Shown here one piece after another: positions 469 through 29,332 of a DNA stretch of 64,000 bases. Both the position numbers and the translations under genes were made by a program. Origin of the DNA: Rhodobacterales bacterium (lineage in GTDB: Bacteria > Pseudomonadota > Alphaproteobacteria > Rhodobacterales > Rhodobacteraceae); assembly GCA_025362795.1 (NCBI GenBank), contig JANYFE010000026.1:1-64000 (forward strand), in the 5' to 3' direction. The number at the start of each line of letters is the position of its first letter. The stretch's first letter is position 1. Below the pieces are notes generated by a model. That model was not told the DNA's origin. It saw nothing but the letters and a program-made list of their open reading frames with translations, and did not search any database.

Positions 469-1977
469 TCAGGCGAGTTGCAGTTCGACCCACAGGTTTT
501 GCGCAAAAGACAGGGATTTGATCGAACCGGACGGAGCCTGAAACTCTGGTCCCGGTCCCGTGCCGGTGATCCAGGGGCTGTCGGCGCGGATGACGCGGCC
601 ACTGCACTGGGTCGCCAGGGCTTTCAAAATGGCCGTGTAGGGCATTTGCCCCCAGCCGACTTTCTGGGCGTCAAGCGCGTTTGTCGGGACGAAGGCGGAC
701 AGGTCTGTTTGGTGCATCTGGCCGAGACCCTTGGCCAGCGGCGTGGCGTTGTGGCTGCCGTGGTGGCCGACTTTATAATAGACCGTGCGCGCCAGAAGGT
801 CCGGTCCGGTCACCTGAGCGTCGCCGACCTGCCAGCTTCTATCTTGCCAGCTTAGCCAGTTGCCGATCTGGGCATCGGCGGCGAACAGCAGGACACGGCC
901 GGTGTCGATAAACTCGAACGCCAGAACCAGCGAAGTATTGTTGGTCTTGCTGTCCAGTTGCATGGCTAGATCAGCGCTTATGCCGAGCCAGTCCTGATCG
1001 ATCCGGCGCCACGACTGATCGCGGTCGGGTTGCGTTGTGGGAGCGAGGTTTTTGCGCGACGGGTTTGGCCGCGCTGGCGGCTTTGCCGGGCCGCTGTAGT
1101 TGTCTTGCACAAAACTGGCCAGTGCTGCCGCCTCTGGGCCGACGGCACGCGCCACGGCGTCCAGCGGCGTGCCGACATAGGTGTCAAAGGGCGCACCAGT
1201 GTCCACGATTTCAGTCTGCGCCGCGCTGACGGCGCAGGCCACCGCCAAAGCCCTGCTCCGCGGTGAAGTGGCAACTTGTGCCCCGAACATTTCGCTGGCC
1301 CGTTCAGTCAGGCCCAGCAGTTTGGCGTCGCGGGGCGGACCGAGGACATAGATGCGCAGGCCCAGATCGTCGCGGATCATCGGGGGATCGGTCGGTTCCA
1401 AATAGTGGATGTTGCCGCGCGCCAGACCAATACCGGCGTCACGGGCAGCACGGACTTTGCTGCCGGTGGCGCCGAAACTAAAACCGATCACCGCATCCAG
1501 GCCCTGATGCAAGGCGGTGATATAGTCGCTGGGTGCTGCCGCTGCTGACAAGCGCTGGCTGGCCGCTTGCAACGCGGTGACCGCGTCGTTCTTGTATTTG
1601 TCCAACTGCTTTGCCTGTGGGTCGGCGGGGTTTTCAGTCCATGCAAGCCAGACGGCATCGACCGAAAAGCTTTTGAATTGATCCGCAGCAGTCAGAAAGC
1701 CTGACACGTGATCGGTATGTTCGTGGGTCAGGACAAGCACGTCGATGTGTTTGGTCTGCGTGGCGATGTCCTGCACGATCGCGGCGATTTTCGCCGTGCC
1801 GCCGGTGACAGAGGAATGCACCCCGCAGTCGATCAACATCCAGAACAGACCACCACCGACCTTTGGGAATGACAGCAAATGGCAATCACCGATGCCCTGA
1901 CAATAGTGGCGTACCGTCATCCGGCCTGCTGGCTGGGAAGGCGGTTTGGCAGTGGCAGGATTTCTGGCCATGATCAT
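469..1977 (-). CDS. ComEC-like MBL-fold metallo-hydrolase
   Basis: A 502-residue protein of the metallo-beta-lactamase fold. The metal-binding signature LTHEHTDHVSGF is at about residues 82-93 (H85, H87, D89, H90). A late KVGHHGSHN motif is typical of the ComEC/Rec2-type subgroup. No signal peptide is evident, so it is probably cytoplasmic. Family members hydrolyse phosphodiesters or act as nucleases, but the substrate here cannot be read from sequence. The start at 1977 overlaps the stop of the upstream protease gene (ATGA) and has GGAG just upstream. A second ATG two codons later, at 1971, is possible. The tight overlap implies co-translation with the S8/metallopeptidase gene. A second MBL gene lies in the rightward arm of the same cluster. 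Confidence 0.85.
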   Translation of the reverse strand: MIMARNPATAKPPSQPAGRMTVRHYCQGIGDCHLLSFPKVGGGLFWMLIDCGVHSSVTGGTAKIAAIVQDIATQTKHIDVLVLTHEHTDHVSGFLTAADQFKSFSVDAVWLAWTENPADPQAKQLDKYKNDAVTALQAASQRLSAAAAPSDYITALHQGLDAVIGFSFGATGSKVRAARDAGIGLARGNIHYLEPTDPPMIRDDLGLRIYVLGPPRDAKLLGLTERASEMFGAQVATSPRSRALAVACAVSAAQTEIVDTGAPFDTYVGTPLDAVARAVGPEAAALASFVQDNYSGPAKPPARPNPSRKNLAPTTQPDRDQSWRRIDQDWLGISADLAMQLDSKTNNTSLVLAFEFIDTGRVLLFAADAQIGNWLSWQDRSWQVGDAQVTGPDLLARTVYYKVGHHGSHNATPLAKGLGQMHQTDLSAFVPTNALDAQKVGWGQMPYTAILKALATQCSGRVIRADSPWITGTGPGPEFQAPSGSIKSLSFAQNLWVELQLA

Positions 1978-4900
1978 GCGTCTCCTTCGTGGTCGTGTAG
2001 CATGGCGAAGGGTTCGGCTGCGGTTGCGCCGAAATAGAGGGCCCGCAGTGACGTGGATGCCCCACCGATCGCTGTTTGCCGTTGGCGTTCGCCACGTGCG
2101 GTGCTGCCGCTGTTCTTGATGATCGCATAGCGGATCGCGCGGCGACCTTCGCGCGGATCGATGATCAAAGTGCAGCCGCCCCGGAACCAGAACTTTTCGC
2201 CGTCCGGGTTGGCGGGGTCCAGCGGCAACGGGCGGCGTTGCAGAACCGTTGCCACGACTTCGACCTGAACCGAGCCATCGTCGGCGATGCGGCGCGCTGG
2301 GCGGACGCTGAACACGTCAAAGGTTGTCTGGCCGGGCGCGGCGGGTTTGACCACTTTGAAATTTGAATCGAACCTCGGGACGCCGTCCTGCAGGCCGAAA
2401 CTTTCGCAAAGCTGAGGGTTTTTGGCAAAGATAGCCTTGAGTTTGAACAGAACTTGCTTTCGATTGATTTCGTTCAGACGAAACACCTCGGTCCGGTCCA
2501 GATCGCGCAACGCACCCAGATCAAGACCGTCAATCAGATCATCCAGCCAGTCCGGCGTCGGGTCTGGGAAGGTGCCCCACCGCAACGTTTCTTCAGACAC
2601 TGTGCGAACGTCGCGCGGCAATATGTTGAATCTACGAAAATTTTCCATGAACGCGAGTCGGTAGTGATGATGATCGTCCGTCACGGAATCACTGTCAGCG
2701 GTGACGAGCGCGCGCAGATACTCGCCAAAGGTGATGTCAACCGCAGGACAATAGTCCAGCGCGCGGATGCACATGCGCAGAACGTGGTGCGCGGTTTTGG
2801 AGGTTTCTTTTGCGATGCGGTCGACCAGATCGGGGTGCAGCGCGCCACTGGGCAGAATGCCAGAGCCGTTGGTGGCAATGCGGATCAGATCGCCGGTGCG
2901 GCCATTGACGATCTGCAGGAACGCTTCGTAGACCGCCGCAACAAGGATCGAGGCCCGGGCATGCGGTTCGGTTGTAGTGGCATAGTCAAGGGTTCGGGTT
3001 TCGCCGCTGAGGTAGTCGCGCAACGGCCCCTTGCGGCCCGTGCCTTGTCCGAATTGCTGTGCCAGACCGCCGAGCAGTTTGGCGGCGCTGAGGTCGCCAC
3101 GCGCCTGCGCGACCTGAAAGCGCACCAGTTCAGGTATGGCGAAATGTTGAAACAGCGCGACAATGTCGGCGAAAGCCTCATGAAAGGCGGGAACGTCAAG
3201 GTTCGACACCTCTTGCATGCGGCGGTGCAGGCCATCCAGCAAGGCGTGTGACATCTCGTGCGCGACGATGTCGCTGGACAGACAGGAAAACACCATCGTG
3301 CCGGGGGCCGTCGCGTCGCCGTCTTGCGAGTTGGCCTGAAAATACCCAAACAGCAGCGCCTTCTTCTCAGGGCTGTAATAGGCGTTATCGGTGCGCAACG
3401 CATGCGGATAAATGCGAAGGCGCGGCACTTCATAACTGTTGTAAATCTCTGTTCCGTCGCTGTTTTTGGTGATGACGCGGTGCGGAGCCCATAGCACTTT
3501 GCGACCCAGAGCATGTTCAAAGTTGGTGATCGTGGTCATGGCGATGGCATAGACCATCTGCTGGTGGAACTGCGGATTGCCTTCGGATGGCACGTGACCG
3601 TCTTGTGCCAAAAGCCGTGGCGCATTCAAATTAACTGGGTCATAGACCCGGTTCGACGCCGGATCGACATCGACCACCTCTACATACTCGCCAATCGGGC
3701 CGGCTTGCAGATTATCCTCCCAACGGACCGGCAACGTAGTTTCGTTTATCGCGACGCTGTCCAAGGATTTGGCGGCTGACGGGTCGAGCGCGTAGACCCG
3801 CAGGCGGCGAGCGGGCGGCGGCTGATCTTTGGGTTTGGGTCGGAACGGCGGTTTTGGGGCAGGCGGCGGCGGTGCACCGCCGCTGATTTGCTTGCGCGAC
3901 AGCCATTGTTCCAGCTGTGCTTTCAGTGGCGCAGAGGGCTTGCCCGCATCTAGCGCCGCCGCAAGATAGCGCTGGCGGGCAACGGCAGAGATCTGATCCG
4001 GTGCCAGGTCATTGTCGCCAATGGCCGCATCGACTGTGGCATTTTGCTGGGCCATCTGGGTTAGTTCCAGCGCCAGCATCCGCTCGTGCGCGGTGGTTGG
4101 GGCAATGCTGACACCACCCCCGAACAGGATGTCGATCCAGCCGAAACTGGCTCGAGCGGGCGGCAGACGATGCAGCGCGGATTTGTCGGCAGGCTGCTCA
4201 GCCAATGCCTGATCGGCCTTGAGAACGCCGTTGCCGATTTTTTCAAACGTCTCGGATGGCGACATGCGGGGGGTGCTTTTGGCGGCAGCGGTGAACAGGG
4301 CATGGCGCACCGCCTCGACCCGCATCCAAGGCTCGGGGTAGCCCATGACGGCGGCACGGTGATGCGCCAGCCACAGCGCGGCGGCGGCGGCGATTTGCGG
4401 GGTGGCGGCAGAGGTTCCCGAACCGTCCATATCGACCAGTTTGCCGCAGCCGATCGCGGCCCACGGCACATTGGGGGTGAAGGCACCAAGGGCGGTGTTC
4501 ATTTTGGACGACGGGCCATAGCTGCCCTGCATCGTGCCAGAGGCCAGCCCGGAATAAGCACGACCATCGGCCATCACGCCGCAGGCCGCCAGCACCCGAC
4601 GATAGCGGGCGGGGAACACGGTCGAGCGCGGGGTAAGCGGATTTCCGGCGTAATTGTTGCCCGCGGCGGTGACGAGGACCATTCCGCTGTCATAGGCCAG
4701 ATTGACGGCATCGACCAAGGCGGCAGACGTCAAGCCGCCCATGCTCATCGACAAGACTTGCGCATGGCTGCGGCGGGCGTGGTCAAAGCCCTGCACCATG
4801 GTCCCGGTCCAGAACCGGACCACCCAATCGGCAATGCGGATCGGGATCACATGGGCAAAGGCCGCACCACCAATCGGACCGGTGTAGCCAGACCAGTCGG

Positions 4901-5594
4901 GCGACGTGCCGTCCAGCGGGTTGCCAGCCAAAAGCGCAAGGGTTGCAGTGCCATGGCCGCGGTTTCGGGTCAGCGCCGCGCCGGCTGGCGTGCGGTCGCT
5001 GGCGTCGTCCGGAAAAGCGGCGTCGACGAAGTTGCGCTGCAAGCTCAGGTCAAGGTTTGCAGGGCGGGTGATGTGCCCGGGGTCATATCCGGTGTCAAGA
5101 TGCGCCACGATGACCTGCGCCAGCTTCTGTTCCCAATCGGCCCCCAATGTCGCGCGTGCGGCGGAAAATTGCGAAAAGGCCGCCAGCTGGTTCCAGTCCC
5201 GTATGCCGACCGGGGGCGGGGCCTTGCCGCCGCTGCTGTCTTGATCATGGAAAATACAAAGCGCGTCGGCGGCCATTGCGGTTTTGGACGCGTCAGATTC
5301 AGGCGCAAACCAATGTTGTTCGTGGTCAGGTTCCACAAGGGAAACCCGCGCCCCAGCGGCGAAGCCCTGTCCCGGAACAAGGGCCGCGTGGGCTGCGTCC
5401 CATGGGTTTTCGTGGGTCTGACCCTGGTCAATGCGGAACCAGGTCGCCCGCGGTGCGGCGGCCGCACCCAGCCCGGATTCGGCGGCGGGGACTTCCAGAA
5501 TTTTGGTGACGCCCATCGGCGCAGCCCCTTGGGTCGCCGCTACAAAGGCTTGCGGATCGCCAACAACCTTGACCAGTAAACCATTTGCGGGCAT
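1974..5594 (-). CDS. Fused S8 subtilisin / HExxH metallopeptidase, 1206 aa
   Basis: Two protease domains in one chain. After about 130 poorly conserved residues comes a subtilase domain with Asp (AHLDTGYDPGH, D167), His (RGHGTAT, H214) and Ser (SGTSAATPQ, S395). A proline-rich linker at about 590-620 leads to a second domain. That domain has a zinc motif HEMSH (H779, E780, H783) and a downstream HEAFADIVALF (E806), as in thermolysin-like gluzincins. No secretion signal is visible at the N terminus. The start has GGGGGT upstream, and a sigma70-like promoter lies at 5616-5643. It is the first gene of a leftward two-gene operon with an MBL hydrolase and is divergent from two caspase genes. This suggests an initiator or effector role in a proteolytic cascade, which is inference. 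Both catalytic sets appear complete. Confidence 0.88.
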   Translation of the reverse strand: MPANGLLVKVVGDPQAFVAATQGAAPMGVTKILEVPAAESGLGAAAAPRATWFRIDQGQTHENPWDAAHAALVPGQGFAAGARVSLVEPDHEQHWFAPESDASKTAMAADALCIFHDQDSSGGKAPPPVGIRDWNQLAAFSQFSAARATLGADWEQKLAQVIVAHLDTGYDPGHITRPANLDLSLQRNFVDAAFPDDASDRTPAGAALTRNRGHGTATLALLAGNPLDGTSPDWSGYTGPIGGAAFAHVIPIRIADWVVRFWTGTMVQGFDHARRSHAQVLSMSMGGLTSAALVDAVNLAYDSGMVLVTAAGNNYAGNPLTPRSTVFPARYRRVLAACGVMADGRAYSGLASGTMQGSYGPSSKMNTALGAFTPNVPWAAIGCGKLVDMDGSGTSAATPQIAAAAALWLAHHRAAVMGYPEPWMRVEAVRHALFTAAAKSTPRMSPSETFEKIGNGVLKADQALAEQPADKSALHRLPPARASFGWIDILFGGGVSIAPTTAHERMLALELTQMAQQNATVDAAIGDNDLAPDQISAVARQRYLAAALDAGKPSAPLKAQLEQWLSRKQISGGAPPPPAPKPPFRPKPKDQPPPARRLRVYALDPSAAKSLDSVAINETTLPVRWEDNLQAGPIGEYVEVVDVDPASNRVYDPVNLNAPRLLAQDGHVPSEGNPQFHQQMVYAIAMTTITNFEHALGRKVLWAPHRVITKNSDGTEIYNSYEVPRLRIYPHALRTDNAYYSPEKKALLFGYFQANSQDGDATAPGTMVFSCLSSDIVAHEMSHALLDGLHRRMQEVSNLDVPAFHEAFADIVALFQHFAIPELVRFQVAQARGDLSAAKLLGGLAQQFGQGTGRKGPLRDYLSGETRTLDYATTTEPHARASILVAAVYEAFLQIVNGRTGDLIRIATNGSGILPSGALHPDLVDRIAKETSKTAHHVLRMCIRALDYCPAVDITFGEYLRALVTADSDSVTDDHHHYRLAFMENFRRFNILPRDVRTVSEETLRWGTFPDPTPDWLDDLIDGLDLGALRDLDRTEVFRLNEINRKQVLFKLKAIFAKNPQLCESFGLQDGVPRFDSNFKVVKPAAPGQTTFDVFSVRPARRIADDGSVQVEVVATVLQRRPLPLDPANPDGEKFWFRGGCTLIIDPREGRRAIRYAIIKNSGSTARGERQRQTAIGGASTSLRALYFGATAAEPFAMLHDHEGDA

Positions 5595-5920
5595 CGCGCT
5601 TACCCCCTGTTTTCCAATGTAAAAACTATTTTAAGTCAGTCAAATTCCGACAACAGCAGTCCGGCGCTGGCACGGCACAGTTGAAGCCTGACTTACACCT
5701 AGGATCGGATCGGGCGAAAATTTCAATCGAAGCAGACCTTAGCACATCTTGTCCGCAACGCAAAATTGATTCCTGAACGTCTGGGTTCGTGGATGCAATG
5801 CTGCAAATATCTACTTAGACGGGCAGGACCGCCCGCGATGAAACCCGATGCGCGAATCAAAAATTTGTGCTATGCTTGCAAAATTCAGAATATTTTTTTC
5901 AGGTGAGGGGAATTGCAGTC
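5595..5920. promoter_or_regulatory. Shared divergent promoter region of the protease cluster
   Basis: This 326-bp gene-free region separates the two arms of the caspase/protease cluster and must hold both promoters. It is more AT-rich than the flanking genes. The leftward promoter is listed separately. For the rightward arm only a weak extended -10 candidate (TGCTATGCT around 5870) was seen, with no clear -35. A small hairpin (CGGGC/GCCCG) lies near 5820-5835. The ribosome-binding site of the rightward gene is at 5901-5910 (AGGTGAGGGG). Confidence 0.6.
5616..5643 (-). promoter_or_regulatory. Sigma70-like promoter for the S8/metallopeptidase operon
   Basis: Read leftward there is a -35 TTGACT (5638-5643), a 16-bp spacer and a -10 TACATT (5616-5621). 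It is followed by a purine-rich Shine-Dalgarno and the ATG at 5594. Spacing and position fit a vegetative promoter with a short leader. Confidence 0.5.
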
Positions 5921-6724
5921 ATGACCTCGTCCAGAATCTGTCTCGATTCCAGAGTAGCTTTAGTTCTATGCCTGAGTTTCGGTCTCGCAGGTGCTGCGCA
6001 AGCGCAAGATTCTGCGGCTGCCGGAGCCTCAACCCTGACTGCGCTTGCCCAGGATTTGGGCAAATTCGCTGTTGTGGTCGTGTTTATTGAATCGGCGATG
6101 TCCGCCATTTTCAACTGGCGCGTTTATCGGGCTATCGTGAACTATCGGTCCATGAAGACGCCGGTATTGTGGGCGGTCGGTTTGGCGGTGGTCGCGACAT
6201 ATCACTATGATATATTTAACATAATCATGGCTTCAGTGAAGCCGGTCGCCGCAAGTTCTGCGGGCTCTTGGCTGACATATGCCGTGTCGGCGTTGATGAT
6301 CGCGGGTGGCAGTTCCGGGATCAACACATTGTTCTTGCGGCTTGGCATACGGTCGCCCATCGCGGAGGAACCGGTCAAACCGGCCCTGTCGATGACCGAG
6401 GCCTGGCTGTCGGTGAAGGTGACGCGGACCGCGGCGCGAGGGCCGATCCAGATTGCGATTGAGGAGGTGGCCGGCGGCCCGGCACTGCCGCTTGTCGGAT
6501 CACTGCAAGAGCGCACTCTTGGTCAGCGGCTGCGCGACGCGTTCGGGGCCGATTCAATGCGGTTCCCAAGCTATGGGGGCTGGACGATCAAGGCCGGGCA
6601 AAGTTACCGCATCACCGCAATTGCCACCGCCGAAAGCGCAAATGGGTTAGTTAGCCAAAGCAAAGTTATTTACGAGGGTGCGTTCGCGCCAAGGGCAATC
6701 GTGGACTTGCAGTTTGTTTTTTGA
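5921..6724 (+). CDS. Membrane protein with signal peptide, caspase cluster
   Basis: A 267-residue protein. The N terminus is a signal peptide with a probable cut after A28 (AQA). Hydrophobic segments follow at about 48-66, 81-103 and 117-140. A soluble C-terminal domain of about 120 residues, rich in short beta-like stretches, ends in VDLQFVF. No family was recognised. ATG at 5921 was chosen over an upstream start at 5867 because AGGTGAGGGG sits at the right distance and the signal peptide then begins at residue 1. It opens the rightward operon, 24 bp before a lysozyme-like gene. A holin-like, anchoring or sensing role is possible but not shown by the sequence. Confidence 0.75.
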   Translation: MTSSRICLDSRVALVLCLSFGLAGAAQAQDSAAAGASTLTALAQDLGKFAVVVVFIESAMSAIFNWRVYRAIVNYRSMKTPVLWAVGLAVVATYHYDIFNIIMASVKPVAASSAGSWLTYAVSALMIAGGSSGINTLFLRLGIRSPIAEEPVKPALSMTEAWLSVKVTRTAARGPIQIAIEEVAGGPALPLVGSLQERTLGQRLRDAFGADSMRFPSYGGWTIKAGQSYRITAIATAESANGLVSQSKVIYEGAFAPRAIVDLQFVF

Positions 6725-6748
6725 GAGATGATTTAGCAGGAGGCAGTT

Positions 6749-7444
6749 ATGAATACAAAGACTCAGGATGCCATGATCTGGCTGAATCAGAACTTTGGCG
6801 GCGATATTGACGCCGCATTGGCAGGTGCGCCGATTCCGAAGAATTTGATGATTGCGATTGGTATTCAGGAAACTTACTATATCTGGGCCAAGATGTATAA
6901 GACCGCCACTCCGGAAGAGATTCTGGCGATTTGTGTTGGCGATACGATTGACTTTCCCCGGCGCAGTACGGCCTGGCCCAAAAATCGCGTCGAGTTGGAA
7001 AAGCACTCGCAGGGCAAAGCGATGTTCAAGGTTGCGCGGGCCGCGCTAGAGCGTTTGGCTAAGGTGAATTCGGGTTTTGCCACGGTGGTCAAGAATCCGG
7101 ACAAATTTTGTCATGGTTTCGGGATGTTCCAATACGACATCCAGTTTTTCCGCAGCGCGGACCCGGAGTTTTTTCTGAACGGCGGCTGGGCGACGTGGAA
7201 AGGTACGTTGGGCCACGGGGTTGACGAATTGAAGGGCATGCTGGCCACGCTTTATGGCGCGCACAAGACGTCCTTAAGCCATGACGAGGTGGTGTTTCTG
7301 GGGGTGGCTTATAATCAGGGGGCGTTGAAAACCAAAAACAACTTCGCCAGCAAGCATTTCAAGATGGGCTACAAGGACGCGCAGGGCATTTATTATGGTG
7401 AACATATCGATAGCAATCTGAAAGCAATGGAGGGGCTGTGGTAA
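6749..7444 (+). CDS. Lysozyme/lytic transglycosylase-like protein
   Basis: A 231-residue protein with the three landmarks of the SLT/lysozyme fold in the right order. These are a glutamate in IGIQETYY (E41, candidate catalytic acid), GFGMFQ at 123-128 (equivalent to the G-x-x-Q strand), and AYNQG at 187-191 (equivalent to AYN[AS]G). No signal peptide is present, so it would be cytoplasmic unless exported by its neighbour or by lysis. A ribosome-binding site (AGGAGG) precedes the ATG, and the stop is 3 bp before the next gene. The assignment rests on motifs only. The fold may have been reused for binding rather than peptidoglycan cleavage. Confidence 0.6.
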   Translation: MNTKTQDAMIWLNQNFGGDIDAALAGAPIPKNLMIAIGIQETYYIWAKMYKTATPEEILAICVGDTIDFPRRSTAWPKNRVELEKHSQGKAMFKVARAALERLAKVNSGFATVVKNPDKFCHGFGMFQYDIQFFRSADPEFFLNGGWATWKGTLGHGVDELKGMLATLYGAHKTSLSHDEVVFLGVAYNQGALKTKNNFASKHFKMGYKDAQGIYYGEHIDSNLKAMEGLW

Positions 7445-7447
7445 GCG

Positions 7448-9817
7448 ATGAGCCTGACATTGGCACCGACCGACCGGGAGCGTGGGCTGATTTATCTTGA
7501 TCCGGCTCTGACGACGGCACCTGCGACTCATGCGCTGATCATTGGCTGCGGCCGCTTTGCCGCGCCGACGTTGCCGCCGGTCACATCGCCGCCCGTGTCG
7601 GCCCGTAAGGTTGCCGGCTGGTTTCTGGAACATGTCACGGGGCGCAGCACGGCGGGTTTTGCAAATTCCGATCGACCGCTGGCCAGTCTGGCGGTGGTGC
7701 TGTCCGAGGCGGCGGACGGGGCCTTGTCGCAGATTGAAGGTGGGCCGGTGCCACGTGCGACATTCGCCGTGATCAAGCAGGCCGTGCGCGACTGGGCGGC
7801 GCGGGCGGATTTGAACAACGGTTCGATGATGTTTCTGTTCATGGCCAGCCACGGTCAAAGCTTCAACCGGCAAACCGCGATTCTGTGTGAAGACTATGGG
7901 GCCGACACGGATGATGAATTTGCCGGGATGACCGAGGTCGAGCAATTCGTCGAGGCGATTGCCAATCTGGATGTGGCCGAAAAGCTGATGGTATTTGACT
8001 GCTGCCGGACCCCGGGCGCGTTGCCACAGAACCCGGACGGGCTGTATGGCAGCAGGTTCATGGCGAAAAAGGTCACAAGCCACGCCGCACCGCGCCGCCC
8101 GCAGGTCTTGCGGTCGACGGTGATTGGCAAAGAGGCCTACGGACTGCCGGCCCGCCCGACGCTGTTCACACAGGCCTTGCTGGATGCGCTGGGCGGGTTG
8201 GCGGCGGATTACAACGAGGATTGGCAGATCGCGACGGACAGGCTTGCAAGTGTCACGGAGCGGCTTTTGGGTCTGCACCAACTGGACGACGAACGGTTGC
8301 AGGAGCCCGAGTTTCAGTTGACGGCGGCGTTTCAGGTGGCGCAGGCCACCGCGACGGATCGGGTGACGCTGTATGTGTCATTGGACGCGCCGCTGGATCT
8401 GACCAAGGGGCGGTTGGAGATGATGTGCGATGGGGTCGTTCAGGGTGCGGCCTTGCCGCTGTCGCCGCCGTTCATGCGGTTTGATCTGCCGGGCGGGCAA
8501 TCCTTTGTCATCCGGGTGCTGGATGAGGCCGGAGTGCCAGTGGCGGAAACCAAACCCTTCAGTCCCCAACTGCCGCTGGCCTTTCGTCGGTTGCCGGACT
8601 CGCGCGGCATTCAGATCGTCCGGTCCAAGTCGCTTGATCTGACGCCAGGGCCATCGGTTCTGGCGTTGAACATTGGTCCTCACTCGCGCGGGGTGGCGCG
8701 AATTTCGGACCTGGCCGGGCACAGCCTGTCTTTGGCAGGTGAAACGCAGTCGGTCGAAGTCGCGCCCGGCACGCATCGGGTGGTCTTTACCCGGCCGGAC
8801 GGCAGGCTGTTGACCACGGATGTGGCGGTTGGTCCAGGTGAGACCATCACTCTGGATATGCCAGAGAGTGTACGTGGCTCGCCGCGTGAATGGTTGATCG
8901 ATGCGGTGCAAGCTGGGGTGATTTCGGCGGACGCCCGGCCCGGACCGGGGGCGATGGGCTTTGCCACCGAAAAAATTCAGGCGATCAGCGGCACCGAAGT
9001 TGCGGCACTTGTGACGGGCGGGCTGACGGATGCGGTGACCGCCCCCGACTTAAAGTTAATCAGAGCGCAAAGCGATGGGCGCTTCTTTCTGTATAACGTC
9101 GATGACACCCTGGCAGAGCGGTTGCGCGCCCAAAATTACGGAGCAGAGCCCACGGTGCGGGCGGCGGATTTTCCGGTGTGGGTGGTCGTGCGCACTGCGG
9201 ACTGGCGAGAGGTAGGATTTCTACCCACCCTTGGCCAGCAAGGCAAATGGCTGCAAATGCCGGGCAGGGGCGCTGATCCTTGGGGCGCTGATGTGCTGAT
9301 CGATATGGCGGCAGACAATGCCTCGCACCTCATCACCTATGTCCGCAATCAGCGCTGGGCGATGCTGCTGGCCTTTCTTGCGCGGCGCGATTTCGTCGGC
9401 GGCGGATCCGAGTATGAGGCATTGTTCCGGGACAACACCCTGCAGGTGGCGATCATGGAAAAGGTCAGCAATCCTCTTGCAGCATTTGCGGCGGCCTTGA
9501 TCGGCGTCGGGACAGGGCAGGTCGAAATGGTTGGTGTGGCCCAAAACTGGCTGCGCAATCTTGTGAACTGGTTCCCGGGCGTGCCGGACGGGCCGGTCAT
9601 TCTGGCGCGGCATTTGCTGGCGCGGGGCGAGGCGAACGCGGCCGCCGCACTGTTGAACGTGGCTTTTGCACGGGGTGTGCCGGTGTTTTCGCTATCCGTC
9701 GACTGGCTGGCGCAAGGCATGGCTGCCCTGGACCTTGCGGGCGCAGACGAGGCACGACGCTGGTCGCGGCTGGTTGATCCGGGCCGGACTTTCAGCGTGT
9801 TGCGGCTGCCGCGATAG
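7448..9817 (+). CDS. Caspase-like (C14) protein, 789 aa
   Basis: The N-terminal domain (about residues 25-255) is a caspase/metacaspase fold. It starts with the strand HALIIGCGRF, has the catalytic His in FMASHGQ (H135) and the Cys in VFDCCRTPG (C186). The middle (about 260-480) looks like two beta-sandwich segments, the second resembling a PEGA-type domain (VEVAPGTHRVVF). The C-terminal 300 residues are largely helical and unassigned. There is no signal peptide or transmembrane segment. The gene starts 3 bp after the lysozyme-like gene and ends 10 bp before the MBL gene, so it is operonic. It is a likely cysteine protease cutting after basic or acidic residues; the specificity is unknown. 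Confidence 0.85.
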   Translation: MSLTLAPTDRERGLIYLDPALTTAPATHALIIGCGRFAAPTLPPVTSPPVSARKVAGWFLEHVTGRSTAGFANSDRPLASLAVVLSEAADGALSQIEGGPVPRATFAVIKQAVRDWAARADLNNGSMMFLFMASHGQSFNRQTAILCEDYGADTDDEFAGMTEVEQFVEAIANLDVAEKLMVFDCCRTPGALPQNPDGLYGSRFMAKKVTSHAAPRRPQVLRSTVIGKEAYGLPARPTLFTQALLDALGGLAADYNEDWQIATDRLASVTERLLGLHQLDDERLQEPEFQLTAAFQVAQATATDRVTLYVSLDAPLDLTKGRLEMMCDGVVQGAALPLSPPFMRFDLPGGQSFVIRVLDEAGVPVAETKPFSPQLPLAFRRLPDSRGIQIVRSKSLDLTPGPSVLALNIGPHSRGVARISDLAGHSLSLAGETQSVEVAPGTHRVVFTRPDGRLLTTDVAVGPGETITLDMPESVRGSPREWLIDAVQAGVISADARPGPGAMGFATEKIQAISGTEVAALVTGGLTDAVTAPDLKLIRAQSDGRFFLYNVDDTLAERLRAQNYGAEPTVRAADFPVWVVVRTADWREVGFLPTLGQQGKWLQMPGRGADPWGADVLIDMAADNASHLITYVRNQRWAMLLAFLARRDFVGGGSEYEALFRDNTLQVAIMEKVSNPLAAFAAALIGVGTGQVEMVGVAQNWLRNLVNWFPGVPDGPVILARHLLARGEANAAAALLNVAFARGVPVFSLSVDWLAQGMAALDLAGADEARRWSRLVDPGRTFSVLRLPR

Positions 9818-9827
9818 AAAGGGGCAC

Positions 9828-10889
9828 ATGGTGGATTTCAAACTGACCCTGCATCAAGCGTCCGAAGGCGATGCGCTGGTTTTGGCATGGGGTGCACATC
9901 ATGCAGTGATCGATCTGGGCCGCACCGCAGACTACACTGCGTTGCGACCGTGGCTGGTGGCTGACCATGGGATCGAGCTGTTCGTCATCAGTCATATCGA
10001 CGCCGATCACATCGAGGGGGCGATGCAGTTGGTGGCAGAAGCCACGGCACCGTTCATGCCGCGCGAGGTGTGGTTCAACGGCCATGCGCAACTGGCGGCG
10101 GCCAAGGCACGGGCCAAGGTACTGGAACCGTTGAGCGTCGATCAGGGCAACAAGCTGTCTGCCGGCATTGTCCGGTTTGGCTGGCCGTGGAACGTGGCTT
10201 TTGCCGGAGGGCCGGTGTCTACCGACAGCCAGAGTCTGGGTCAGGTTTTCGACGTGGCGGGGCTGCGGGTGATCCTGCTGAGCCCTTCGGATAAAGAGCT
10301 GATAAAACTCGGCGCGACCTGGACCGCCGAGATTGAGGCTGCGTCGCTTGGTCTGGCTGACCCGGATCAGGCACCGCTAGCCCCGATGGGGTTTGAATCC
10401 TTGTCGGTGATCGAGGTTGAAAGCCTGGGCGCCAAACCGTTTGGCGCTGATACGACGCCGCCGAATGGGTCGTGTATCGCGTTTCTGGCAGAGTTTGGGG
10501 GCAAGCGGGTTCTTTTGGGTGCGGATGCGTTTCCCGGGCGCATTGCACAGTCGCTGACCGAAATGGGGTACGGTCCGCAGAACCGGTTGAAGCTGGACCT
10601 GTTCAAGTTGTGCCATCATGGCAGCAAGGCAAATCTGTCGCCGGCATTGCTGCAGATGCTGGATTGTACGCGCTTTGCCATCTCGACCGACGGAACGCGG
10701 CACCACCATCCCAATCCGGAAACCATCGCGCGGATTTTGGTTGCTGATCCGAAGCGGCAAAAGACCTTCTATTTCAACACCCGCCAGCCCAGTGCCGAGG
10801 TGTGGGATGATCCGGAACTGAGGGCAAAGTGGCGCTATGACTGCGTTTTCCCGGAGCATGGCGCGAAGGGGCTGGAGGTGCCGATATGA
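9828..10889 (+). CDS. MBL-fold hydrolase with HxDxDH motif
   Basis: A 353-residue MBL-fold protein. The metal site reads SHIDADHIEG (H56, D58, D60, H61), so the second His of the usual HxHxDH is Asp. A late LCHHGSKAN motif resembles ComEC-type members. ATG at 9828 has AAAGGGG upstream. A longer in-frame extension to 9666 would overlap the caspase gene and was rejected. It is the second MBL gene in the cluster and differs from the first (502 aa, canonical HxHxDH), which suggests different substrates or one reduced-activity paralogue. Cytoplasmic; the substrate is unknown. Confidence 0.8.
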   Translation: MVDFKLTLHQASEGDALVLAWGAHHAVIDLGRTADYTALRPWLVADHGIELFVISHIDADHIEGAMQLVAEATAPFMPREVWFNGHAQLAAAKARAKVLEPLSVDQGNKLSAGIVRFGWPWNVAFAGGPVSTDSQSLGQVFDVAGLRVILLSPSDKELIKLGATWTAEIEAASLGLADPDQAPLAPMGFESLSVIEVESLGAKPFGADTTPPNGSCIAFLAEFGGKRVLLGADAFPGRIAQSLTEMGYGPQNRLKLDLFKLCHHGSKANLSPALLQMLDCTRFAISTDGTRHHHPNPETIARILVADPKRQKTFYFNTRQPSAEVWDDPELRAKWRYDCVFPEHGAKGLEVPI

Positions 10890-10905
10890 CGTTGGCAGCG
10901 GTCTG

Positions 10906-12537
10906 ATGCCTGCGGGGCGAAACACAGCGCTAGTGATCGGCAACGGTGACTATCAGTATGCGACGCGGCTTGAATCGCCGCATGGCGATGCGCTGGCGAT
11001 GGCCAGTCTGCTGGAGCGGTTGGGGTTTGACGTGGTTGCGGGTTTTGACTGCGATTTTCACGACTTCGAGCGGCGTCTGCGGGACTTTCAGGACAGGATC
11101 GATCCGGCGGGGGTGGCTGTGTTCTATTATTCGGGACATGGCGTGGCAGAGCTGGGCGAAGCCAACCACTTGCTGCCGGTCGATGCCAAGGTACTGTACC
11201 GGGACGATCTGGGGCGGGTGACGATTCCCCTGGATGACGTGCTGACCGCGATGCGAGAGGCGGCGCGCGTCAGTCTGCTGTTTCTGGACGCCTGCCGTGA
11301 TGATCCATTTGCCGGCGCGGTCGGTGAGCTGCGCACCAAACGGGTGTTTTTGCCCAGTGTGGGCCTGGCGGCGGTGCCAAGGGAACTGCTCAATCAAGCG
11401 CTGATCGCCTTTGCTGCCGAAGAGGGCGAAGTCGCACGGGATGGCGATAGCGGCAGTTTAAGCCCGTTTACAGCGGCGCTGGTGCAACATCTGGGCAGTC
11501 CGGGTCAGGAAATCCGGTCGGTGATGACGGCCGTGCGGCGCGATGTGCGCACTGCGACGGCCAACAAACAGACCCCGTGGTCCAAGGAGTCATTGACCGA
11601 AGATTTCGTGCTGGTGCCGGCGGGCGAAACGGTCGCACCACAAAAGCCACCAGAGATGTCGGGTGGTTTTGTTCAGCGCAACGTCGGGGCGCAGAAGTTT
11701 TTGCCGGGCGTCCCGGCGGCAATGGCGGAATCGGGGCGCAGAGGGCAGTGGATTTGGCTCACCGGCGTTGTGATCGTGTTGATGGGCGCGGGTGGGTTGG
11801 CACTTTCCTTGGAGCAAAGGTCCGGCGGCCTGTGTGACAAATGGGCTCTGGGTTTCTTTCCACCCTGTCCCATCGTGACGGTGGACGACATCGCAGAGCT
11901 TGATTCGGTGTCATTTGCCCGGGCTTCTGATGCGGCAGATCGCCTTGTCCAAAAACTAAACGGCGGTTTGCTGGTGGTTGCCGAAAAGCGAGACTTGGCA
12001 AAATCACTTGTGGAGTTACTGGACCCCGGAAAACTCAAAGGATTTTCGCTGAACGGGCAGCGGAGCTTGCTGTCTGTCCTGTCGCAAATCCCTGCGACGA
12101 CCTGGCAAGGGGCGGTTTGGTTAGATCTGGCGGTGCAAACCCAAAGCCAGATCGCCAATCTGGATGGCGCGGTAAGGTCCGGCACTCTCATGTTGGCACC
12201 GGACTCACTGATGAACTTGGTCGCGTTGAAGGGCAATCTTGGGTATGTCAACCGCGCGACTCTGACCGTCTACTTTCAGTTTGCCGGCTATACGCGGCCT
12301 GCGGCGGAAGCGTTTCAGGAAAAGCTGTTTTCCCAAGGCCAATGGAAAGTTCCAGGTGTGGAACGCGAGGCAGGGGCGTCCGGGTTGAACGAAGTGCGTT
12401 ATGGCGATGCGAAGTTGCGGGTCACGGCACTGTTGCTGGCAAAGGATGTCACGACGATCACCGGCAAGACCGTGACAGTGGCAGAGATCGAACCCGCCAT
12501 ACCGGCGCTGCATCTGGAAATCTGGATAAGCCAGTAA
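10906..12537 (+). CDS. Membrane-anchored caspase-like (C14) protein
   Basis: A 543-residue protein. The N-terminal caspase fold has TALVIGNGDY, YYSGHGVAE (H78) and LFLDACRDDPF (C130). A basic/polar linker leads to one transmembrane helix at about 282-304. Behind it is a 240-residue C-terminal domain, probably periplasmic, with no recognised family. ATG at 10906 is used. The GGAGG upstream is better placed for an ATG at 10886, which overlaps the MBL stop but opens only a 6-codon frame ending at the true start (TGATG), so translation may be by coupled reinitiation. The topology places the protease inside and the C-terminal domain outside, as for a transmembrane sensor. It is the last gene of the rightward arm. 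Confidence 0.85.
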   Translation: MPAGRNTALVIGNGDYQYATRLESPHGDALAMASLLERLGFDVVAGFDCDFHDFERRLRDFQDRIDPAGVAVFYYSGHGVAELGEANHLLPVDAKVLYRDDLGRVTIPLDDVLTAMREAARVSLLFLDACRDDPFAGAVGELRTKRVFLPSVGLAAVPRELLNQALIAFAAEEGEVARDGDSGSLSPFTAALVQHLGSPGQEIRSVMTAVRRDVRTATANKQTPWSKESLTEDFVLVPAGETVAPQKPPEMSGGFVQRNVGAQKFLPGVPAAMAESGRRGQWIWLTGVVIVLMGAGGLALSLEQRSGGLCDKWALGFFPPCPIVTVDDIAELDSVSFARASDAADRLVQKLNGGLLVVAEKRDLAKSLVELLDPGKLKGFSLNGQRSLLSVLSQIPATTWQGAVWLDLAVQTQSQIANLDGAVRSGTLMLAPDSLMNLVALKGNLGYVNRATLTVYFQFAGYTRPAAEAFQEKLFSQGQWKVPGVEREAGASGLNEVRYGDAKLRVTALLLAKDVTTITGKTVTVAEIEPAIPALHLEIWISQ

Positions 12538-12838: not shown

Positions 12839-15169
<2,331 letters not shown>

Positions 15170-23727: not shown

Positions 23728-23978
23728 GCATTGCCGACTGCCATACTGCCGGGGCGCCCACTCTGCGGGCATCTGTGTCAAACTCATGGGTAAAGCCAGG
23801 CGGCATCCTCCTGGGCACCGCCCCTTGCAAAATGCGGCTGAGGCCAGGAACGGCCCTGGAAACGGTCTTTTGCAATGCCAAATCCGTTCGGACTATGGCA
23901 ACCCAGCCGACAGAACGGTTCCGGCCCTGGCCGCACTTACCGCTTGCAATACTGGCCATTTGGCGAATTCTTTCAGCC
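23728..23978. other. Intergenic gntR-modE
   Basis: No gene was seen. Two short hairpin-forming stretches with CCAGG/CCTGG arms occur around 23790-23860. I looked for a molybdenum-cofactor riboswitch here because of the mod genes and could not identify its conserved core. Confidence 0.3.
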
Positions 23979-24362
23979 ATGACCGAACCAGTCGCGCCCA
24001 TGCCCGCACCCACCCGATTGCAATTGCGCATCTACTTTGGCGCGGCGGCGATGCTTGGGCCGGGAAAGGCGGAAATGCTGGAGCGTATCCGCGACACCGG
24101 GTCAATTTCGGCTGCGGGTCGCGCGATGAACATGAGCTACAAGCGTGCCTGGTCGCTGGTCGAAGAAATGAACGCCGCTTTCCGCGACCCCTTGGTCGAC
24201 AGCACGCGCGGCGGCCCGGGTGGCGGCGGTGCCCGGCTGACCAAGGCCGGTGCCGTTGTTTTGCTGCACTTCCGCGCGATCGAAACGGCGGCATCGCAGG
24301 CCGCCGCGGCAGATATTGCAGCGCTTACCGCGATGCTGAGGGATATATCCGTCCAGAAATAG
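23979..24362 (+). CDS. modE: ModE-like molybdate regulator, DNA-binding domain only
   Basis: A 127-residue protein of the ModE N-terminal LysR-like winged helix type. The core is DTGSISAAGRAMNMSYKRAW, followed by a glycine-rich wing (GGPGGGG). It lacks the C-terminal MOP/TOBE molybdate-binding pair of E. coli ModE, as is common in alphaproteobacteria. ATG at 23979 is likely but has a weak ribosome-binding site; ATG at 24000 is an alternative. It lies 67 bp upstream of modA and probably represses modABC when molybdate is plentiful. Confidence 0.85.
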   Translation: MTEPVAPMPAPTRLQLRIYFGAAAMLGPGKAEMLERIRDTGSISAAGRAMNMSYKRAWSLVEEMNAAFRDPLVDSTRGGPGGGGARLTKAGAVVLLHFRAIETAASQAAAADIAALTAMLRDISVQK

Positions 24363-24429
24363 CGCTTGCATCCCGCCTTCGTCTCGCGTGATGTGTCTGG
24401 TGAAACATATCGCTTAACCGGAGTTGTTC

Positions 24430-25208
24430 ATGCACCGTTCGACCTGTCGCGCCGCGCTGTTGGCTGCGCTTGCCGTGTCCACCGCCTTTGCCTGGCCCGG
24501 GGTCGTATCGGCTGGGGAAATCACCGTCTTTGCCGCGTCCAGCCTGAAGACGGCACTGGATGCCATCGCCGCTGACTGGCAGACCCAGACTGGCAATACC
24601 GTGACGATCTCCTATGATTCCTCGGCCAAACTGGCTAAGCAATTGCAAGAGGGCGCACCCGCCGATGTGTTCATCTCGGCCTCGCGGCAATGGATGGACA
24701 CATTAGCCGACGGCAGCCTGATCAAACCGGACAGTCGCAAGAACATTCTGGGCAACACGCTTATCCTGATCGCGGCAGGCAAGGGTGCGGCGCCGGTCGA
24801 AATCGCCCCGGGTTTTGATCTGGCGGGCCTGTTGGGCGATGGCAAACTCTCAATGGCCACGGTCGATTCGGTGCCTGCGGGCCAGTACGGCAAAGAGGCG
24901 CTGACCTCTCTGGGGGTCTGGGATGCGGTGGCACCCAAAGTGGCCCAAGCTGAAAATGTGTGGCGGCGCTGGCGCTGGTGGCTACTGGCGAAGCTCCGTT
25001 CGGCATTGTCTATGCCTCTGATGCCATAGCCGAGGACAAGGTTTCGGTGGTTGGCACCTTCCCGGCTGACAGTCACAAACCGATCATCTACCCTGCCGCC
25101 GTCATGGCCAGCAGCGCCAAACCCGAAGCGCAGGCGTTCCTTGACGATCTGTCGACCGAGGCGGCGGCGGCGATCTTTATGGCACAGGGTTTCACCGTAC
25201 TGAAATAA
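24430..25208 (+). pseudogene. modA: modA, molybdate-binding protein, frameshifted
   Basis: This is the periplasmic molybdate-binding protein. It has a signal peptide, then the ModA opening EITVFAASSLK, the anion-binding stretch and SVPAGQYGKEAL. The frame is broken near 24958-24962, after AQAENV (codon 177). The protein continues in the next frame with AALALVATGEAPFGIVYASD and ends normally at 25208. The two halves join perfectly if one base is restored, giving a normal length of about 259 residues. Read as printed, the protein stops at 25029 and lacks its last third. It could be a real loss-of-function mutation or a sequencing error. modB and modC are intact. GGAG lies 7 bp before ATG 24430. 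Confidence 0.85.
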
Positions 25209-25224
25209 CGTTGCAAGGCAGGGC

Positions 25225-25923
25225 ATGGCGGATTGGTTCTCACCCGGCGAATGGCAGGCCATCGCCCTGTCGCTGCGGGTGTCGTTCTGGTCGATGCTGC
25301 TCAGCCTGCCGTTCGGCATTCTGGTGGCCCATGTGCTGGCGCGGCGCGAGTTCTGGGGCAAGCAGGTGCTGAACGGGCTTGTCCATCTGCCCTTGATCCT
25401 GCCGCCGGTCGTGACGGGCTATTTGCTTCTTTTGACCTTTGGGCGCAAAGGCTCGGTCGGCCAGTATCTTGACCAGTGGTTCGGCATCGTGCTGGCGTTC
25501 AAATGGACCGGCGCAGTGCTGGCCGCCGCCGTCATGGCCTTTCCGCTGATGGTTCGCGCCATCCGCCTGTCTATCGAGGCGGTGGACCCCAAACTGGAAC
25601 AGGCCGCTGCCACTTTGGGGGCCTCGCCGGTGTGGGTGTTCCTGACCGTCACGCTGCCGCTGATCCTGCCCGGCGTGATTGCCGGGGCGGTGCTGGGCTT
25701 TGCCAAGGCGATGGGTGAATTTGGCGCGACGATCACTTTCGTGTCCAACATTCCGGGCCAGACTCAGACTCTGCCCTCCGCCATCTACGCATTTCTGCAA
25801 GTGCCGGGCGGCGACCCACAGGCGTTCCGGCTGGTGCTGGTGGCCATCGCGGTCGCGATGCTGGCGCTGATCTTGTCGGAATGGCTTGGCCGCGCTGTTG
25901 CACGCCGGGTGTCCGGCCCATGA
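25225..25923 (+). CDS. modB: Molybdate ABC transporter permease
   Basis: A 232-residue inner-membrane permease with five or six helices. It has the ModB/CysT-type cytoplasmic loop at about 130-160 (EQAAATLGASPVWVFLTVTLP) that docks on ModC. It begins 17 bp after modA and overlaps modC by four bases (ATGA). Confidence 0.95.
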   Translation: MADWFSPGEWQAIALSLRVSFWSMLLSLPFGILVAHVLARREFWGKQVLNGLVHLPLILPPVVTGYLLLLTFGRKGSVGQYLDQWFGIVLAFKWTGAVLAAAVMAFPLMVRAIRLSIEAVDPKLEQAAATLGASPVWVFLTVTLPLILPGVIAGAVLGFAKAMGEFGATITFVSNIPGQTQTLPSAIYAFLQVPGGDPQAFRLVLVAIAVAMLALILSEWLGRAVARRVSGP

Positions 25924-27002
25924 CGCTGTCCGTCACCTTGGGTCACAAGTTTGCGGGCTTCACCCTCGACGTGGCCTTCGAGGCACCGCGCGGCGTGACG
26001 GCGCTGTTTGGCCGTTCCGGTTCCGGCAAATCGACGGTGATCAATGCGGTGGCCGGTCTGTTGCATCCCGACCGGGGCCGGGTGGCCAGTGATGATCAGG
26101 TGCTGCTGGACGTGGCCCGGAATATCAACTTGCCGGTCCACAAACGCCATCTCGGCTATGTCTTTCAGGAAGGCCGTCTATTTCCGCATCTGACTGTGCG
26201 GCAGAACCTGGCCTATGGCCGCTGGTTCGCGGGCAGGGGGGCTGGGGACTTTGACCGCATCGTTACCATTCTTGACATCGCGCCCTTGCTGCAGCGCCGC
26301 CCCGCTACCCTGTCTGGCGGTGAAAAGCAGCGCGTCGCCATCGGTCGCGCCCTGCTGAACCGCCCGCGCATCCTGCTGATGGACGAACCGCTGGCCGCAC
26401 TGGACGAGGCGCGCAAGGCCGAGATTCTGCCCTATATCGAAGGCCTGCGCGATCAGATGGACATCCCCATCCTGTATGTCAGCCATTCACTGGCCGAAGT
26501 GGCGCGTCTGGCCAGTCATATCGTCGTGCTGAACGCAGGTCGCGTGGTGCGCCAAGGCTCGGTAGCAGAAGTTTTGTCGGACCCCGCCGCCGTTCCGGAC
26601 CTTGGCCTGCGCGATGCCGGAGCATTTTTGACTGCCACGCTGGCCGCACAGGATGCCGATGGGCTCACACGACTGGATACCACTGCTGGTCCAATCTGGC
26701 TGCCCAGGATTGCGGCGGCCTTGGGGACCACTCTGCGGATCAGGGTCGCCGCCCAAGATGTGATGCTGTCGCGCACAAGGCCCGAGGGCTTGTCGGCGCT
26801 GAACATCCTGCCCGCCACCGTCGCGGCCTTGCGCTTGGGCGAGGGGCCGGGGGCACTGGTGCAGCTAAAGGTAGGTGATGACCTGTTGTTGGCCCGCATC
26901 ACCCGCCGATCTGCCGCCACCCTTGATTTGCAAACCGGCACGGCGGTGTTTGCAGTGCTGAAAGCTGTGGCTGTCGCCCCCGCCGACATCGGCATGCCGT
27001 AA
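25920..27002 (+). CDS. modC: Molybdate ABC transporter ATPase
   Basis: A 360-residue protein. The N-terminal ABC domain has Walker A GRSGSGKST, signature LSGGEKQR and Walker B ILLMDEPLAALD. The C-terminal MOP/TOBE domain (about 290-355, ending AVLKAVAV) binds oxyanions for regulation. ATG at 25920 overlaps the modB stop and gives standard ModC length. It is the last gene of the mod operon. Confidence 0.95.
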   Translation: MTLSVTLGHKFAGFTLDVAFEAPRGVTALFGRSGSGKSTVINAVAGLLHPDRGRVASDDQVLLDVARNINLPVHKRHLGYVFQEGRLFPHLTVRQNLAYGRWFAGRGAGDFDRIVTILDIAPLLQRRPATLSGGEKQRVAIGRALLNRPRILLMDEPLAALDEARKAEILPYIEGLRDQMDIPILYVSHSLAEVARLASHIVVLNAGRVVRQGSVAEVLSDPAAVPDLGLRDAGAFLTATLAAQDADGLTRLDTTAGPIWLPRIAAALGTTLRIRVAAQDVMLSRTRPEGLSALNILPATVAALRLGEGPGALVQLKVGDDLLLARITRRSAATLDLQTGTAVFAVLKAVAVAPADIGMP

Positions 27003-27685
27003 GGCATCAATCGCCGCCCGCAGGTTCAGGCCAGAAGGGTGTTCAGCTCGGGGAAAAGCGGCCCAGGCTTGCGCCGAAACGCTATCCTCAACGCAGGGAT
27101 AAAACGCTCACACCCACCGTTGGCCGGTCTGATCCGTCCGCGCCCTATCTAAGATCGGAGCCGTCCCGCGATCCGGTGCCGCCGCCAAGGGCGGGTGGCC
27201 CGTTCGTCCTGTCGACCTTGTTCCCCAGGCTGAGCCTGACCTTGTCTTAGGCCGGGCCGGTGACGCTGCCGTCTGGCCGATCATTCCCGGGCCGGATCGC
27301 CTGTGGCATTGCAAGATTCCTGACGCTCGGCGAATGTGGAGCTGCCGTCGGCATCGGTGTCCTTGCGGCGGCGGGTGGATTGGATATCTTTCGGGCCGAG
27401 GCCATTAGCCGGAATTGGCGATGACCTCACCCTTGGTGATCCGGAAGGCTGGGACCGTATGCTGAACATTGCCGCCACCCCTCGCGCAAGACAGGCGGCG
27501 CGGCCATGTCAGGGGGCGCGGTCGTGGTCGGATTGCACCGTCGACGGCTCTGCCCCGGCGAAAGGGTCACCGATCCGGAAACCGGTCGACGCCGCCACGC
27601 AATTTTGGGTGCTGGCCGGTGTCCCGACCGCGCCCCGCGGCGATCTGCGGTTTGGCAATCCCTGCCGTCTCTCTGGACCTGCGTC
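27003..27685. other. 683-bp region without a recognised gene
   Basis: Several short open frames on both strands are interrupted by stops, and none resembles a known protein. Base composition is similar to neighbouring genes, so this may be a decayed gene rather than true spacer. No repeat, hairpin terminator or promoter stands out. Confidence 0.4.
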
Positions 27686-29317: not shown

Positions 29318-29332
29318 GGCCGCGCCAGCCAC

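Follow-up and report, generated by a model that had tools for sequence, protein, structure and literature searches.

Seven genes packed into two divergent arms occupy positions 469 to 12,537 of a 64,000-nucleotide stretch of Rhodobacterales DNA (contig JANYFE010000026.1 of assembly GCA_025362795.1, hereafter the window), and the question raised by this locus is whether they form a single system. A first-pass annotation had taken them for a possibly undescribed conflict or cell-death system in which one protease cascade is triggered by a membrane caspase. Our analysis indicates that the seven genes are recurring modules lying side by side, not one undescribed unit. Module B (P0005 and P0006) appears to belong to the known Canu type, module A (P0002 and P0001) is a second and apparently undescribed pair of a protease and a metallo-beta-lactamase (MBL) protein, and P0003 and P0004 make up an envelope module. 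It is probable, in our judgment, that the whole is a defense locus of the abortive-infection type, in which proteases switch on two nucleases and an envelope arm is added.

Locus Architecture

All seven open reading frames (ORFs) are real genes, and their arrangement around a shared 326-bp region is as first described:

469..1977, minus strand: P0001, MBL hydrolase of the ComEC type, interrupted by two large insertions (residues ~114-185 and 218-345); Pfam, AlphaFold2, PDB match
1974..5594, minus strand: P0002, the partner of P0001, with a subtilase (S8) and an HExxH zinc protease in one protein; Pfam S8, motif conservation
5595..5920, no strand: intergenic region of 326 bp, presumed divergent promoters; sequence, ribosome-binding-like sites by eye
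5921..6724, plus strand: P0003, membrane protein of the envelope module; hydropathy, neighbors of homologues
6749..7444, plus strand: P0004, probable lysozyme-superfamily peptidoglycan hydrolase of the envelope module; invariant E41, non-significant fold matches
7448..9817, plus strand: P0005, fusion of a CanA-like caspase with a CanB-like part at the C terminus; profiles, Pfam C14
9828..10889, plus strand: P0006, CanC-type MBL, proposed pro-nuclease; profile of caspase-linked MBL proteins
10906..12537, plus strand: P0007, the other caspase, predicted to have a single membrane segment; Pfam C14, hydropathy

The overlapping starts noted for both arms are found only at the P0002/P0001 junction (ATGA), one of five junctions; the four plus-strand junctions have gaps of 24, 3, 10, and 16 bp, given a P0007 start at 10906, which is favored by a Bosea homologue. 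The catalytic residues that had been named are all present, namely H135/C186 in P0005, S395 and H779-E780 in P0002, and H78/C130 in P0007 with the start at 10906.

A Canu-Like Caspase-MBL Core

Canu is a caspase-nuclease antiphage system, KaeCanABC, in which the gated MBL nuclease CanC is switched on by CanA acting together with CanB; in E. coli, the three Klebsiella genes confer protection against T4 (Tuck et al., 2025; PMC12799240). In Canu, an Ig-like fold follows the caspase domain, and the MBL protein carries two gating insertions that have conserved glycines. P0005 carries a Pfam caspase domain (C14, 2.7e-08), and its residues 18-330 match a CanA-like profile of three proteins (E 2.2e-49), while two stretches within 430-787 match a CanB-like profile (E 1.8e-35), also of three proteins, which was built from the plasmid loci L027, L029, and L174 and named CanB by gene position. 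P0006 matches a profile of four caspase-linked MBL proteins with an E-value of 1.9e-113. Because P0005 is CanA-like plus CanB-like and P0006 is CanC-like by these profiles, module B appears to be Canu-like, an assignment made by layout and family and not by direct comparison with the Klebsiella proteins. PDB sequence searches with P0005 and P0006 gave nothing usable. In this Canu-like module, the CanB part would, on infection, let the caspase of P0005 cut the MBL protein P0006, which would then degrade DNA.

Since the core is Canu-like, the caspase-MBL part of the cluster cannot be called undescribed, and the suggested conflict or cell-death role is supported, as a Canu system has been shown to defend against phage (PMC12799240). 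Nor is the absence of a STAND/AAA protein, on which the first-pass annotation had remarked, an oddity, because the published prototype of Canu consists of three genes, none of them reported as a STAND gene. Two ComEC-like MBL proteins had been proposed; this holds for P0001, as described below, whereas the Pfam MBL match of P0006 is below threshold (0.0016) and its relationship is instead seen in a strong match to LmuA (2.7e-59). P0006 also matches Avs1a (1.3e-54). Membership of P0006 in AVAST or Lamassu was considered and rejected, as the partner genes are missing and the Avs1a match reaches 185 bits against a curated cut-off of 420.

Comparable gene sets lie on plasmids. In L027, L029, and L174, a caspase of 394-399 residues is followed by a second protein of 404-503 residues and then by an MBL gene, and the Bosea plasmid locus L022 has the same CanA-CanB-type fusion, an MBL gene, and a P0007-like caspase. 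The neighbors of the L174 set recall Dnd systems, their annotations being cysteine desulfurase, DUF4007, and PAPS reductase. In the Agrobacterium and Bradyrhizobium plasmids (L027:11182-14762 and L029:9084-12776), genes annotated as S8 peptidase and ATPase lie close by on the other strand and are possibly another partner pair of Canu.

P0007 is a clear caspase homologue (Pfam C14, 1e-35), and its nearest solved structure by sequence is the MALT1 paracaspase (1.9e-10). It has one hydrophobic segment (residues 306-324 counted from 10837), and its H101/C153 correspond to H78/C130 with the start at 10906. Pfam and hydropathy thus bear out the S8 domain of P0002, both caspases, and the transmembrane segment of P0007, but we found nothing in support of the membrane caspase as a damage sensor, a role that could fall equally well, or better, to the CanB-like half of P0005. 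In Mesorhizobium amorphae (L044:20097-22760), an 887-aa protein encoded near a P0002-P0001 pair matches only residues 325-565 of P0007, and the C-terminal, non-caspase half of P0007 may therefore be a mobile domain.

A Second Protease-MBL Pair

The minus-strand arm encodes a different protease with its own MBL partner. P0002 has a Pfam Peptidase_S8 match (1.6e-19), as had been claimed; its HExxH part has no significant Pfam match, and the identification rests on the motif and its conservation. The conservation was examined in the best 80 of 473 confirmed relatives from a genome scan, both flanks of 9 kb being present in 46 of these 80 loci. The S8 triad D167/H214/S395 is kept in all 77 homologues without gaps at these positions, and H779/E780/H783/E806 are kept in 80/80, the count for E806 being partly circular because this residue sits inside a scan pattern. 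A whole or partial P0001 homologue adjoins P0002 on the same strand in 73 of the 80 loci, and two of the remaining seven (L102 and L107) end within 104 and 370 bp of P0002. In L033, L122, L127, and L134, the zinc part occurs without S8 beside an MBL gene; therefore, zinc protease and MBL may be the core of module A, with S8 as an addition.

P0001 matches Pfam Lactamase_B_2 (3.3e-07), and its metal ligands H85/H87/D89/H90 are present in 70/70 homologues, where residue counts for the MBL cover homologues of at least 380 aa. The AlphaFold2 model of P0001 (pLDDT, the predicted local distance difference test score, of 81 from 40 sequences) has a confident MBL core, and its best match to a solved structure is the ComEC MBL domain 9ic4 (E 7e-11). 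The two insertions at ~114-185 and 218-345 are of low confidence, with pLDDT below 50 at 234-265 and 326-330. The first metal motif and the Asn motif are 261 residues apart in P0001, whereas an annotated Avs1a has 205 residues between them and P0006 has 157; the ComEC of the same genome was tried as a ruler, and no MBL motif was found in its C-terminal 330 residues. Because the ComEC-type MBL model has two large low-confidence insertions, it suggests that P0001 may be a gated pro-nuclease. The stretches with pLDDT below 50 hold the near-invariant P263 (69/70), F264 (70/70), and W330 (69/69 without gaps), and such conservation might be that of a protease recognition site. The S8 protease, the zinc protease, or both would cut the insertions of P0001 and thereby release a nuclease.

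The literature searched contains no description of an S8-HExxH-MBL pair, although an S8 partner may be included in the supplementary tree of Tuck et al. (fig. S2). Module A is therefore apparently a second, undescribed protease-MBL pair, and the claim of novelty, which fails for the Canu-like core, stands for module A and for the combination. The likely logic is that of a protease cutting a pro-nuclease, twice in parallel, and in this form the proposed protease cascade is half borne out; a single linear cascade is less likely.

A Proposed Envelope Arm

The remaining genes, P0003 and P0004, have no significant match in Pfam, NCBIfam, PADLOC, or PHROGs, and P0004 has no match among PDB sequences. 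P0003 has an N-terminal signal-like segment, hydrophobic segments, and a soluble C-terminal part with conserved positions; two segments are above the hydropathy threshold, compared with one to five in the 11 homologues listed. Homologues of P0003 were found in 16 plasmid records, and the neighborhood counts below refer to 12 distinct loci from these records, with L130 counted for NZ_CP025613, CP013572 and CP088106 left out because they look like duplicates, and CP050556 and CP140857 also left out; matches in genomes G594, G626, and G728 (L131-L133) are short and were not counted. P0004 occurs in 12 plasmid records, from which five loci (L121, L124, L125, L126, and L128) were taken.

A protease and an MBL gene lie within 9 kb of P0003 in eight of the 12 loci (L021, L026, L122, L123, L127, L129, L134, and L136), L129 being scored by annotation and Pfam S8. 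A peptidoglycan-active or peptidoglycan-binding protein is encoded in nine of the 12 and was not found in L127, L130, and L134:

L021: Hydrolase_2
L026: amidase and GH25 (annotation)
L122: PG_binding with M15
L123: Amidase_2 with tail lysozyme
L129: PG_binding with weak CHAP
L135: tail-tip lysozyme, 6.7 kb away (annotation)
L136: DUF2272
L137: M23
L121: P0004-like domain only

In addition, a patatin gene (Pfam) directly precedes P0002 or P0003 in five loci, being next to P0003 in L035, L087, and L127 and ahead of P0002 also in L090 and L099; patatin is also annotated in L122 and L129. As a control, three 50-kb stretches from three of the same plasmids (150 kb, 123 features) contained no annotated MBL, patatin, S8, or peptidoglycan hydrolase and one gene called amidase, beside ABC transporter genes; this control covers few stretches and draws on an incomplete plasmid gene table. 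Because protease-MBL pairs are recurrently linked with P0003, wall-active proteins, and patatin, we suggest a coupling between killing by nucleases and an attack on the envelope, in which P0003 and P0004 would help to break or permeabilize the cell.

Residue E41 of P0004 is invariant across P0004 and seven relatives, the relatives carry annotated SH3 or DUF2272 parts, and the motifs of P0004 recall those of lysozymes. The top eight of 44 Foldseek rows for the P0004 model are lytic transglycosylases, a bacterial chitinase domain, and g-type lysozyme, none of them significant, and unrelated proteins such as cyclins follow. Thus, P0004 is probably a lysozyme-superfamily peptidoglycan hydrolase, as judged from an invariant residue, the domains of its relatives, and a predicted model; the lysozyme-like character first proposed for it gains nothing from the domain libraries or PDB sequences. 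Around the homologues, further associations were observed. In a Nostoc plasmid (L126:1-18624), the gene for a P0004-like SH3 protein lies amid genes annotated as M15 peptidase, peptidoglycan-binding, NB-ARC, and NACHT proteins, and in two rhizobial plasmids (L124:7966-10551 and L125:7965-10557), a DUF3616 gene directly before a P0004-like DUF2272 gene forms a further conserved pair. The Rhizobium etli locus L021 is flanked by a MoxR ATPase gene with its own MBL gene (1445-9631) and by AAA ATPase, McrC, and UvrD-type genes (23838-30001), and is likely a defense island.

Descent of P0003 and P0004 from phage lysis genes was rejected, as neither has a match in 50,697 phage records (E 0.01); viral contigs gave no match for P0003 and one for P0004. 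A different role for these proteins is conceivable, in which P0003 and P0004, with patatin in the relatives, sense envelope damage or phage lysis proteins and trigger the proteases without taking part in killing. The conserved positions in the soluble part of P0003 would suit such a sensor, and a general wall signal is conceivable as the wall proteins beside P0003 vary by locus, but the invariance of E41 and the recurring patatin-type lipases fit attack better, and we regard the sensing role as unlikely.

Wall hydrolases, patatin, proteases, and nucleases are also typical secreted or type VI cargo. The locus could accordingly encode secreted or injected antibacterial or predatory enzymes acting on wall, lipid, protein, and DNA, with no part in immunity, and the plasmid of one relative has type VI genes elsewhere. 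However, P0001, P0002, P0004, P0005, and P0006 have no hydrophobic segment above threshold (by hydropathy, no signal-peptide program being used), none of the seven proteins matches secretion machinery in Pfam and defense-library scans, and the Canu homologue works inside the cell (PMC12799240). Export for use against other cells is therefore very improbable.

Distribution and Possible Joint Function

Among relatives searched, P0005 was found in one of 147 (its own genome), and among genomes of the class P0006 in one of 289 at E 1e-10 (again its own), P0004 in two (its own and one partial match), and P0003 in five, its own included. P0002 has matches in 19 of 398 genomes of the phylum, with full length in its own and two others only. 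Given this sparse occurrence of P0002-P0006, the cluster looks accessory. Within the 80 P0002 loci, among which are Pseudomonas, Lysobacter, Rhodopirellula, Acidobacteria, desulfobacterial, and Burkholderiales records besides those of Mesorhizobium, P0003 occurs in five, P0004 in two, and the C-terminal half of P0007 in one. Random placement of P0003 would lead to about 0.01 occurrences in 80 loci, by rough arithmetic from 5/289, versus the five observed. A conserved seven-gene unit was rejected because of its absence from these loci, of which 46 include both 9-kb flanks, although subsets recur (P0002-P0001 in 73/80, P0003 in 5/80, and P0005-P0006 in L022); the check for a chance grouping that came with the first-pass annotation thus has a mixed outcome.

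These counts lend weight to a reading in which two or three independent defense cassettes happen to lie side by side, the Canu-like and S8-HExxH-MBL pairs acting separately and P0003-P0004 belonging with only one of them. Indeed, 73 of the 80 P0002 loci have no homologue of P0003-P0007 at all, P0005 and P0006 homologues occur in none, and the Canu-like stretches of L022, L027, and L029 have no P0002 homologue, nor does L174 by annotation. On the other hand, P0003 and P0004, which elsewhere are partners of module A, lie here in one gene run with the Canu-like pair, at the short intervals given above, and this is the strongest hint of joint action. Moreover, Canu-like loci elsewhere lie near an S8 peptidase gene (L027 and L029), near lysozyme and amidase genes (L022, where these follow the caspase on the other strand, along with M23 genes and the gene for a protein that has four hydrophobic segments), or near a divergent patatin gene (L174), and a P0006-like MBL without a caspase is found near module A in L021 and L127. 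We consider independent cassettes to have somewhat less than an even chance.

Several observations weigh against a joint defense locus, or against parts of it. The full set of seven genes is seen only here (0/80 P0002 loci), and for this reason a joint function of modules A and B is hypothetical. The association within module A is incomplete, as L088, L101, L106, L110, and L112 have no P0001 homologue (blastp 1e-4) despite DNA beyond P0002, and the high correlation of MBL distances with S8 distances (0.955) and with zinc-part distances (0.964), over 67 loci, may reflect common descent alone, 21 of the 80 loci being Mesorhizobium by title and not independent. In module B, G107 in the first insertion of P0006 is shared by five of five caspase-linked MBL proteins but by Avs1a too, and no conserved glycine was found in the second insertion. 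In the envelope arm, no protease-MBL pair was found in four of the 12 P0003 loci (L121, L130, L135, and L137), and fold support for P0004 is weak (pLDDT 63 from four sequences; best fold match E 0.56). Finally, the left end of the cluster coincides with the contig end, and the right neighbors, a katG-like peroxidase and a LysR-type regulator, are not defense genes.

The left end may indeed be cut, because the window begins at base 1 of the 66,283-bp contig. Another contig of the same genome, C85, terminates in a further katG 3′ end (62604-62763), 83% identical over 160 bp to the window copy (12839-12998), which may represent either a paralogue of katG or the opposite side of an insertion; a clean insertion site could not be demonstrated from the katG neighborhoods in the genus.

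On balance, we still favor a locus of the abortive-infection type in which two nucleases are switched on by proteases beside an envelope arm; here sensing, activation, and defense are inferred, as are the workings of module A and of the envelope arm and any cross-talk among modules. A more far-reaching form of this reading, in which the locus is one suicide machine with two nucleases gated by a caspase and by a subtilase and zinc protease, envelope attack by P0003, a wall hydrolase, and in relatives patatin, and common proteolytic control, so that P0003 founds a non-phage, protease-licensed lysis family, seems to us rather doubtful.

If the favored reading is true, a widespread partner combining a subtilase with a zinc protease extends proteolytic nuclease activation to other protease classes, and P0001 is a directly testable substrate. 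No report of nuclease killing combined with envelope attack was found in the literature searched.

Comparison with Known Systems

The closest known system is Canu: there, as in this locus, a caspase comes first, then a CanB-like part, and then, downstream, a homologue of the MBL nuclease, P0005 and P0006 being 10 bp apart. The locus differs in that the CanA and CanB parts are fused in P0005 and are separate genes elsewhere, and in the addition of a second, membrane caspase, the envelope pair, and the divergent S8-HExxH-MBL pair.

Proteolytic nuclease activation in bacterial immunity has been reported for trypsin-like and caspase partners (PMC12799240). Module A resembles the trypsin-MBL pairs of Hachiman, AVAST type 1, Lamassu, and DRT (PMC12799240) in having a ComEC-type MBL with insertions and a partner protease. 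For those pairs proteolytic activation is shown, whereas for module A it is proposed. In those systems, moreover, a trypsin-like protease is fused to a HamA, Avs, or Lmu protein; module A has no trypsin but joins an S8 subtilase to an HExxH zinc protease, and this double protease is encoded upstream of the MBL gene, with no fusion to a defense ATPase or sensor. Among the seven proteins there is likewise no trypsin or ATPase match in library scans.

The NTP-dependent ternary conflict systems, and likewise ‘System 3’, combine trypsin, S8, and caspase proteases with a nuclease and, in some operons, wall effectors (Kaur et al., 2020; PMC7159879). Their nuclease is NucA and not an MBL, and none of the seven proteins here has a Pfam match to MoxR, vWA, or STAND, although MoxR genes lie near the related loci L021 and L122.

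Phage holin-endolysin lysis cassettes offer a further comparison. As in such cassettes, a membrane protein is encoded beside a wall-hydrolase-like protein without an evident signal segment; unlike them, P0003 and P0004 have no counterpart in the phage records or PHROGs searched. Taken together, the Canu-like core is of a kind known since 2025, and the second protease-MBL pair and its association with envelope genes are apparently new.

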